From Planktothrix serta PCC 8927 (GTDB taxonomy: Bacteria > Cyanobacteriota > Cyanobacteriia > Cyanobacteriales > Microcoleaceae), in the NCBI RefSeq assembly GCF_900010725.2, contig NZ_LR734869.1, positions 353,672-417,671 on the forward strand: a DNA stretch of 64,000 nt, read 5' to 3'. A program made the translations under genes and the position numbers. Positions 61,401-64,000 of the stretch are shown one piece after another (within the stretch, counting starts at the first letter, position 1; each line of letters begins with the position of its first letter). The notes under the pieces were generated by a model, which was not told where the DNA came from, ran no database searches, and worked only from the letters and a program-made list of their open reading frames with translations.

Positions 61401-62168
61401 AATAACCGCACTGCTAAAATTGATTTTACCGGAACCTCTGAACAATTATCCAGTAATTTTAACGCTCCCAAATCTATTTGTAAAGCCGCCGTTTTGTATG
61501 TATTTAGAACCTTAGTAGACGATAATATTCCTCTGAATGCAGGGTGTCTAAAACCCTTAGAAATTATTATCCCTGAAGGCTGCTTTTTAAACCCTCGTTA
61601 TCCGGCGGCTGTGGTGGCGGGAAATGTAGAAACCTCTCAAGCCATTGTTGATGCTCTATATGGCGCGTTAAATATAATGTCAGCCTCTCAAGGAACAATG
61701 AATAACGTCACCTTTGGTAACGAAAATTATCAATATTATGAAACCATTTGTGGGGGTTCTGGTGCGGGAATCAATTATCATGGAACTGATGCCGTTCATA
61801 CCCACATGACCAACTCCCGTTTAACTGACCCAGAAGTATTAGAATGGCGTTATCCCGTATTATTACAAGAGTTTAGGATTCGAGAAAATAGTGGCGGTTT
61901 AGGACAATTTCAAGGCGGAAATGGGATAATTAGAAAAATTCAATTCTTAGAAAAAATGACCGCCGGAATATTATCAGAACATCGAATTATTCCCCCCTTT
62001 GGATTAAACGGAGGACAACCCGGTTTAGTCGGTAAAAATTATATCATTCGTAACAATAGAACAATAGAACAATTAACCAGTACCGCCACCGTTGAAATGA
62101 ATATTAATGATAGTTTAGTAATTGAAAGCCCCGGAGGAGGAGGATATGGAAAACGGGGGCAGATTTAA
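58446..62168 (+). CDS. 5-oxoprolinase / hydantoinase A-B fusion
   Basis: 1240 aa, the normal length for the fused enzyme. HyuA half (about 1-700): [60 protein letters not shown] (ASKHA-type ATP site), [20 protein letters not shown]. HyuB half (about 720-1240): [84 protein letters not shown]. It would open 5-oxoproline or a hydantoin with ATP. Two short peptides at about residues 239-253 and 574-588 are encoded by a G/C-run repeat inserted in frame. Confidence 0.94.
59164..59203 (+). repeat. In-frame repeat insertion 1 in the HyuA/HyuB fusion gene
   Basis: ACTCCCCCCTTTCTAAGGGG and following, encoding [13 protein letters not shown]. It matches the GGGGGATC family seen at 42141-42200. Confidence 0.85.
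60167..60210 (+). repeat. In-frame repeat insertion 2 in the HyuA/HyuB fusion gene
   Basis: GATCCCCCCTACCCCCCTTA and following, encoding [15 protein letters not shown]. Same family and same PLSKGG peptide as insertion 1. Confidence 0.85.
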
Positions 62169-62232
62169 TTAAATCCTTAATACCCCCTTTATTATCCTCT
62201 TAGTGTCTTAGTGTCTTTGTGGTTCCTTAATT

Positions 62233-62670
62233 TTAGGCAATTCGTTTTCTCATCACCAAACAATTTCGTTGATCATCTAACCGGATATAATACAATTCAT
62301 CCGTTAATTTAGACATAAAAATCAGTCCTCTTCCTCCTTCATGTTCTAACGGGTCAGCGTGCATTTCACTCATCAACTCTAGGGCTTTTTCTAAGTCAAA
62401 AGGTTCCCCCCAGTCCCAAATTCGCATTTCAATCCAGGGAGAAACAATCTTAACTTCTAACTCAATCAGTGTCGTTTCAGGTAAGGTACGATGAGCATGA
62501 CGCACAGCGTTTGTAAAACCTTCCGTTAAAGCAATTTGACACTTATGAAAAATATCTGAAGGCAAAAAAGTATAGGTGATTTTTTCAAACCACTGTAACA
62601 CATCTTCTAAAGAGGTTAAGGTCGTTTTCACCTGAAGATTAGATTGTGCTAGTAGCGCTTCATTACTCAT
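62233..62670 (-). CDS. RsbW-type anti-sigma/serine kinase (HATPase)
   Basis: 145 aa from the ATG at 62670, seven bases after the stop of the upstream STAS fusion gene; an in-frame start at 62709 would overlap that gene by 32 bases. The GHKL fold shows the N box CQIALTEGFTNAVRHAHR (Glu and Asn), G1 box IWDWGEPFD and G2 box EGGRGLIFMSKLTDE. Such kinases phosphorylate a STAS protein on Ser or hold a sigma factor. The adjoining STAS domain is the obvious partner. Confidence 0.88.
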   Translation of the reverse strand: MSNEALLAQSNLQVKTTLTSLEDVLQWFEKITYTFLPSDIFHKCQIALTEGFTNAVRHAHRTLPETTLIELEVKIVSPWIEMRIWDWGEPFDLEKALELMSEMHADPLEHEGGRGLIFMSKLTDELYYIRLDDQRNCLVMRKRIA

Positions 62671-62677
62671 CAATTCT

Positions 62678-63682
62678 CTACATAGCACCGCTATTTTTCT
62701 TGAATACAACCATTATAGTTTTGACAATCAACTTCATGTCGTACATCAAGCTCCAATTTTCTTGATACTTCAAATCTAAACGAATAATATCCTCAAAATT
62801 TTTAACTTGAGAGCGACCATTAACTTGCCATTCTCCCGTCATTCCGGGTTTAACATCTAATCTTTGCCATTGAGGAACTTCATAACGTTCCACCTCATCC
62901 GGTGTTGGCGGACGAGTACCCACTAAACTCATTTCCCCCTTTAAAACATTCCAAAATTGCGGTAATTCATCTAAACTGGTTCGCCGTAAAAACTGACCCA
63001 CTTTGGTAATTCGAGGGTCATTATCATTCTTGAAAATAGCGCCTTGTGCTTGATTGGGAATTTTATCTTTTAAGGCTTCAGCATTGGTACACATGGAACG
63101 AAACTTCCAAATGCGGAACCGTTTTCCCATCCAACCACAACGCACTTGACCAAAGAAAATTGGCCCCGGACTATCTAAACGAATGGCAACAATAATCGGA
63201 ACTGCTAAGATAGATGTAATTCCTAAACCCACAAGCGCACCCACGACATCAATTAACCGCTTCAACCAAGACCTAATCGAAGGATGAGTCACAGGAAGGC
63301 GATTTTCCCCTCTTATTTTCTCTTTGGGTCGGTCGTCTGCACTCCTCGGTTCAATGGTTAACACTTGGTCGAGGGAAGTGAGGGAAAAAACAGCCATCAC
63401 TTGAGAGCCAACGGATTTTAAAATTAACTCAATCCCTTTGGCTTTTGTTGTTTTCAGATTACTAATCAGTGCACCAATTCCGCTACTATCAATAAATATA
63501 GTCTGGCTAAAATCCAAAATAATTTTTTTGGGCGGAGGATTGAGAGAAATAACATCCTGGCAGGTAGTTTTAAAGGAAATCGCCTCTAACACACTCAAGC
63601 GTTCTGGTATGCGAACGGAGACGTTCTCTCCTGCTAGGGTAATCGGGAATTTTGCCTCTGGAATTTGACCAACCATCTCCAT
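62678..63682 (-). CDS. STAS domain fused to an initiating sugar transferase
   Basis: 334 aa. Residues about 12-115 are a STAS (anti-sigma antagonist) domain with the phospho-acceptor site FIDSSGIGALI (Ser66/Ser67). After a charged linker, one membrane helix (about 142-168) leads into the bacterial sugar transferase domain: DSPGPIFFGQVRCGWMGKRF, IWKFRSM, NDPRITKVGQFLRRTSLDEL, PQFWNVLKGEMSLVGTRPPT, GMTGEWQVNGRS. This enzyme type moves a sugar phosphate onto undecaprenyl phosphate, the first step of exopolysaccharide synthesis. The fusion and the RsbW gene directly downstream suggest phosphorylation control. Confidence 0.92.
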   Translation of the reverse strand: MEMVGQIPEAKFPITLAGENVSVRIPERLSVLEAISFKTTCQDVISLNPPPKKIILDFSQTIFIDSSGIGALISNLKTTKAKGIELILKSVGSQVMAVFSLTSLDQVLTIEPRSADDRPKEKIRGENRLPVTHPSIRSWLKRLIDVVGALVGLGITSILAVPIIVAIRLDSPGPIFFGQVRCGWMGKRFRIWKFRSMCTNAEALKDKIPNQAQGAIFKNDNDPRITKVGQFLRRTSLDELPQFWNVLKGEMSLVGTRPPTPDEVERYEVPQWQRLDVKPGMTGEWQVNGRSQVKNFEDIIRLDLKYQENWSLMYDMKLIVKTIMVVFKKNSGAM

Positions 63683-63852
63683 GATTTGCTGGGTAGTTGT
63701 TGTTAGTTTTCTTGCTCTATCTTAACGATACCTAAAGAGAATGGAGAAAGGGCTTCCGTTAGGGTCGAGGAACAAGTTATTTGATTTACCCCTTTCTGTT
63801 ATGACAATCGCACCCCTGGTAAATCTCTATTATTTTAAGATCCAAAACGATT

Positions 63853-64000
63853 CTATCTTAAAATTTCACCGACCGCCACACGGGTTCCATTGGCAAAATC
63901 CCAAGCCGACTGTACTCGTTTACCCGCTAATTGTACCTCTCTCAACAACAGCAATCCCGAACCTGTTTGCACTACGGGCCCAAAACGTTTAACTAAAGCC
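63853..64000 (-). CDS. fmt: Methionyl-tRNA formyltransferase, 3' end only
   Basis: The minus strand from the edge reads ALVKRFGPVVQTGSGLLLLR then EVQLAGKRVQSAWDFANGTR and VAVGEILR with a TAG at 63853-63855. This is the Fmt C-terminal domain (LLLLREVQLAGKR-type signature). The N-terminal catalytic part lies beyond the window. It formylates initiator Met-tRNA. The STAS-sugar transferase gene starts 170 bp downstream on the same strand. Confidence 0.88.
   Translation of the reverse strand, partial: ALVKRFGPVVQTGSGLLLLREVQLAGKRVQSAWDFANGTRVAVGEILR

Follow-up and report, generated by a model that had tools for sequence, protein, structure and literature searches.

The locus occupies positions 62233–63682 of the window, that is, the whole 64,000-nt stretch of the Planktothrix serta PCC 8927 genome that was analysed, and comprises two genes on the minus strand. 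One open reading frame (63682–62678, ATG start) encodes a single polypeptide of 334 amino acids, in which Pfam searches matched a STAS domain (PF01740, E = 7.9e-14) at residues 22–114 and a Bac_transf domain (PF02397, E = 2.2e-67) at residues 141–328; the motif FIDSSGIGALI lies at residues 63–73. Its TAG stop codon is followed by seven nucleotides, AGAATTG, and then by the ATG of a second open reading frame (62670–62236), which carries an HATPase_c_2 domain (PF13581, E = 7e-22). The features of the locus, all on the minus strand, are as follows.

62678–63682, minus: gene for the fusion of STAS and phosphoglycosyl transferase, 334 aa (open reading frame, Pfam, AlphaFold2 model, fold matches)
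63341–63619, minus: STAS domain, residues 22–114, of the anti-sigma-antagonist type (PF01740; matches to TM1442, SpoIIAA and RsbV)
63485–63487, minus: codon of Ser66, the predicted phospho-acceptor, which is the first Ser of DSSG and opens helix 66–81 (conservation, model)
63263–63340, minus: variable linker, residues 115–140, with a conserved THPSxxS at its end (low pLDDT at 121–130; alignment)
62699–63262, minus: catalytic domain of the monotopic phosphoglycosyl transferase type, residues 141–328 (PF02397; PglC 8g1n, WbaP 8t53)
62966–62971, minus: Asp238-Glu239 in TSLDELPQ, predicted catalytic pair (invariant in 62 fusions)
62671–62677, minus: 7 nt separating the stop codon of the fusion from the start codon of the kinase, in a two-gene unit (sequence)
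62236–62670, minus: gene for an RsbW-type serine kinase, 145 aa, stop codon at 62233–62235 (PF13581; matches to RsbW and SpoIIAB)

A search for terminator-like sites in 62100–63950 found none. By inspection, the 5' neighbour of the fusion gene is fmt and the 3' neighbour of the kinase gene is a convergent 5-oxoprolinase-like gene; the Planktothrix pair thus stands alone, without flanking exopolysaccharide (EPS) genes. The fusion is 90% identical to that of Planktothrix sp. PCC 11201.

We then modelled both proteins. The AlphaFold2 model of the fusion, built on 62 aligned fusions, contained two domains (pLDDT 88.8, pTM 0.80) with a weak block at residues 121–130, and Ser66 opened the helix spanning residues 66–81. 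Foldseek matched the STAS half to TM1442, SpoIIAA and RsbV, and the transferase half to PglC (8g1n, E = 3.1e-15) and WbaP (8t53). The kinase model (pLDDT 92.6) matched the folds of SpoIIAB and RsbW. Polyubiquitin matches in a PDB sequence search were discarded as artefacts of repeated weak hits. Asp238 and Glu239 were invariant across the 62 diverse fusions, and by analogy to PglC we take them to be the catalytic pair. A Bac_transf domain, a conserved Asp-Glu pair and a PglC-like fold are together the marks of monotopic phosphoglycosyl transferases, and on the modelled fold the transferase is assigned to this re-entrant-helix class. Its catalytic domain thus matches PglC and WbaP by sequence and fold, whereas large transferases of the WbaP type carry a four-helix bundle and a DUF where the fusion has STAS. 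In WbaP, catalysis is under the control of the N-terminal accessory domain; the N-terminal DUF of large transferases also serves in dimerisation, and phosphorylation activates CapM, a small transferase.

Sequence conservation was concentrated at the expected acceptor site. In the alignment of 62 diverse fusions Ser66 was invariant and Asp65, Ser67 and Gly68 nearly so; Ser66 was also kept in all 47 kinase-linked fusions described below, and it persists in Nostocales main-clade fusions without an adjacent kinase. The acceptor is most likely Ser66, since Ser56 of Vibrio fischeri SypA is the first Ser after Asp in the mutagenic primers (PMC10120452). A STAS fold with a D-S/T-S/T-G acceptor site at the start of a helix is the arrangement of anti-sigma-factor antagonists. 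Within the Planktothrix genome, the nearest relative of the fused STAS domain was likewise a free STAS protein of this type and not a SulP domain; four free STAS proteins carry DSSG, and the aligned SulP STAS domains have IDGS or IDTT at the acceptor place. In the linker (window 63263–63340 and relatives), His133 and Ser138 of the THPSxxS motif were invariant across the 62 diverse fusions.

The Asp of the GxxD loop (SpoIIAA Asp23) was absent: this position, which aligned to the Asp of TM1442, was Ser or Thr in 45 of the 47 kinase-linked fusions. Comparable changes in SpoIIAA break its interaction with the kinase, according to the SypA study (PMC10120452), and judged by sequence the missing Asp is a real departure from a canonical kinase partner. 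The kinase carries the E-x-x-x-N box and glycine boxes of the RsbW/SpoIIAB family on its HATPase_c_2 domain, with Glu50, Asn54, Gly88 and Gly115 invariant in the 47 linked kinases. Arg114, beside the invariant Gly115, was Trp in 10 of the 47. The glycine-box GRG was changed to HWG or a similar triplet in L187, L189, L190, L080, L078 and L197 (the Nostocales and Cyanobium/Synechococcus clade), a substitution that could possibly alter ATP handling.

These results bear out the preliminary description of the locus, which had placed a STAS domain with FIDSSGIGALI and a sugar transferase on one polypeptide and an RsbW-type kinase gene seven bases after it: the exact open reading frame, both Pfam domains, the 7-nt gap and the kinase domain were all recovered. 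Its membrane sugar transferase was refined through the Bac_transf/PglC fold match to the monotopic, re-entrant-helix type rather than a multi-spanning one, and of the two acceptors it had allowed, Ser66 or Ser67, the former was retained as the more likely and the latter was not.

To survey the fusion in other cyanobacteria, as had been proposed, we searched 386 sampled genomes of the phylum. It was present at full length in 85 of them, counted among the matches listed, and within the genus Planktothrix 9 of 10 genomes carried it in full. These counts exclude a chance joining of the two domains. In one Planktothrix genome, G261 (L268, G261:C196), neither the fusion nor this kinase was matched. 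Joint loss of the two genes there was considered and dropped: fmt stops close to the edge of a contig, next to a transposase-like fragment, so an assembly gap is possible.

Among 115 distinct fusions, for which flanks of about 1.5 to 6 kb were covered to varying extents, 47 had the kinase no more than 0.9 kb downstream, in the same orientation. A further 65 had none in the flank covered, two had one nearby in another arrangement, and one stretch was incomplete. None of 33 loci with unfused transferases, with flanks up to 6 kb, contained such a kinase. Kinase-linked fusions were spread over the two deep halves of their tree, and the closest unlinked paralogues of the kinase formed a clade (support 91/90) to which the linked kinases did not belong. 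No linkage was seen in the main Nostocales clade (44 rows), and any kinase serving these fusions must therefore act in trans. Taken together, the fusion and the kinase gene are linked repeatedly across the cyanobacterial tree; the link is real and not universal.

Two further analyses were set aside. In a mirror-tree comparison of the 47 linked pairs, STAS–kinase distances correlated at 0.81 against 0.71 for transferase–kinase distances; in 11 genomes that also have a paralogous kinase, however, STAS correlated at 0.86 with the paralogue and at 0.67 with the linked kinase. The STAS domain thus tracks the paralogue at least as well, so the signal reflects shared species history. This kinase found no match in three genomes (G014, G076 and G093), and loss of Ser66 in kinase-free genomes was considered as a natural experiment; it was abandoned since all three carry other RsbW-type kinases.

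Three Nostocales loci were examined (L221, L222 and L223). In each of them a cluster of polysaccharide genes ends with the fusion and the kinase, next to which lies a receiver-PP2C phosphatase gene.

L221, 8262–11558: EPS cluster with fusion, kinase, receiver-PP2C and free STAS
L222, 8966–16627: EPS cluster with fusion, kinase, receiver-PP2C, free STAS, H-NOX and HNOBA-histidine kinase
L223, 9644–12706: EPS cluster with fusion, kinase and receiver-PP2C
L272, 1340–3827 (G000:C49:139500–144500): free partner-switch module of the Planktothrix genome, with STAS, receiver-PP2C and RsbW-type kinase

Pfam searches of the L221 cluster identified an export protein, a Wzx-type flippase, a pyruvyl transferase, an Alg14-like protein and a glycosyltransferase, and confirmed the domains of the fusion, kinase, free STAS and receiver-SpoIIE phosphatase. 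At L222, the receiver-SpoIIE phosphatase, an HNOBA-GAF-histidine kinase-receiver-Hpt protein and H-NOX were confirmed by their domains, and the fusion, kinase and STAS were identified by open reading frame and profile searches. Free STAS was not detected at the L223 locus; it also lay downstream in L188 and L191. No sigma factor was recognised among the genes listed in these clusters, whose fusions are paralogous to those of the Nostocales main clade. Kinase, STAS and PP2C are thus all adjacent in L221 and L222, while the window holds the kinase and the fused STAS and the genome encodes PP2C elsewhere, as in the related free module, which lies 275 kb away on the same contig.

We compared this arrangement with known systems. 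The folds, acceptor motif and kinase boxes of the Bacillus pairs RsbV/RsbW and SpoIIAA/SpoIIAB are common to the Planktothrix pair; the Bacillus output, however, is a sigma factor, and the fused STAS domain is without the GxxD Asp. In V. fischeri, an RsbW-type kinase and a STAS Ser likewise govern polysaccharide-dependent biofilm: SypE acts on Ser56 of SypA below the level of transcription (PMC10120452). In Nostoc punctiforme, HmpU (PP2C), HmpV (STAS output) and HmpW (kinase) control motility and polysaccharide with no known sigma factor. SypA and HmpV are free proteins, whereas the Planktothrix STAS domain is joined to an enzyme that is its likely target. In both the SypA/SypE and the HmpUVW papers the STAS output governs polysaccharide; the target of SypA is not known (PMC10120452) and the effector of HmpV is undefined.

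The fusion itself is not new. As PMC8256260 states, citing Wang et al. 2007, Anabaena all4160 encodes a glycosyltransferase with an N-terminal STAS domain and concerns heterocyst envelope polysaccharide (HEP); PMC4390870 lists it among the HEP genes. The PCC 7120 protein shares this domain order with the Planktothrix fusion and is very probably its Nostocales orthologue. The passages on all4160 name no kinase partner or phosphorylation, and the fusions of the Nostocales main clade have no adjacent kinase. A literature search, with most subscription journals outside its reach, found no prior description of a STAS-transferase-kinase system. The parts are known and the fusion was partly noted before; an enzyme as likely direct output of a partner switch is likely to be a new arrangement.

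On these sequence comparisons, the pair probably constitutes the output end of an Rsb-type partner switch, with the transferase rather than a sigma factor as effector. The kinase would bind the N-terminal STAS domain of the phosphoglycosyl transferase and phosphorylate Ser66, and a PP2C from another Planktothrix locus, such as the receiver-PP2C of the free module, would reverse this. Kinase binding, the STAS phosphate, or both would alter the activity of the attached transferase and thereby change sugar entry into the exopolysaccharide pathway, with the unphosphorylated fusion, as in SypA, being the active form. We infer the binding, the phosphate transfer, the sign of the switch and the response of the enzyme. 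The mechanism is plausible, and it is better backed by the relatives than by the window itself: domains and folds, the invariant Ser66, the conserved kinase residues, recurrent linkage, the position of the linked kinases outside the unlinked paralogue group, the cluster neighbourhoods in relatives and the precedents of SypE/SypA, HmpUVW, WbaP and CapM argue for it, while the lost GxxD Asp, the Trp beside Gly115 in 10 linked kinases, the unlinked Nostocales main clade and the missing EPS neighbours in Planktothrix argue against it. The earlier proposal of such a switch, in which phosphorylation of the fused STAS domain would directly gate the first committed step of polysaccharide synthesis, is accordingly upheld in part, as to the identity of its parts, the invariant Ser66, the ATP boxes and the recurrent linkage, and is weakened by the many Nostocales fusions without an adjacent kinase and by the GxxD position.

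Three other explanations were weighed. The fused STAS domain might be a membrane-anchored regulator or sink for the kinase that controls a free HmpV-like STAS, leaving the transferase unregulated. Canonical RsbV and SpoIIAA act upstream of the kinase (PMC10120452), and a free STAS gene follows the kinase in several Nostocales loci and exists in the Planktothrix genome; yet the covalent link recurs with one enzyme class, the linked clusters examined are polysaccharide clusters, and orphan fusions persist without an adjacent kinase, making this explanation rather unlikely. We also consider it unlikely that the STAS domain serves in structure, dimerisation or localisation as a replacement for the N-terminal part of large transferases, with kinase adjacency reflecting co-expression only. 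The dimerisation role of the large-transferase DUF, the lost GxxD Asp and the many unlinked Nostocales fusions fit such a role, but the invariance of Ser66 and near-invariance of Asp65 and Gly68, a pattern absent from the genome's aligned SulP STAS domains, do not, nor does linkage to 47 of 115 fusions against none of 33 unfused transferases.

That the kinase merely shares an operon with the fusion and targets another free STAS protein or a sigma factor appears improbable. Such partners would be available in the four other STAS proteins of DSSG type that the genome encodes, but the clade of unlinked paralogues does not include the linked kinases, and the paralogous kinase has a free STAS and a PP2C of its own beside it.

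If the partner switch acts on the transferase, polysaccharide initiation would be governed through reversible serine phosphorylation of an accessory domain. The widespread STAS-transferase fusion, often with an adjoining kinase, provides a concrete target class for STAS outputs. In Nostocales such as L222, a longer route is conceivable, though doubtful, in which H-NOX and the HNOBA-histidine kinase act on receiver-PP2C and this in turn sets the phosphorylation of free STAS and of the STAS domain on the initiating transferase of that EPS cluster, so that NO or another signal would directly switch polysaccharide initiation with no transcription step. If true, such a sensor-to-enzyme pathway would point to initiating transferases as what SypA and HmpV act on.

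Further fusion loci showed individual features. A fusion without an adjacent kinase was found on a contig labelled Rhabdochromatium marinum, a gammaproteobacterium (L076 5824–6975), possibly through gene transfer or contamination. In L196 (1579–2636) STAS and transferase lie in different overlapping frames, a frameshift or sequencing error. Divergent fusions in L224 (9617–10941) and L225 (10117–11518) are directly followed by a free STAS gene, with no kinase. By inspection, unlinked Nostocales fusions (L045, L050, L059 and L043) are frequently found close to a queE-like gene and to a gene for a WcaI-like glycosyltransferase, the latter supported by Pfam near the L050 fusion.
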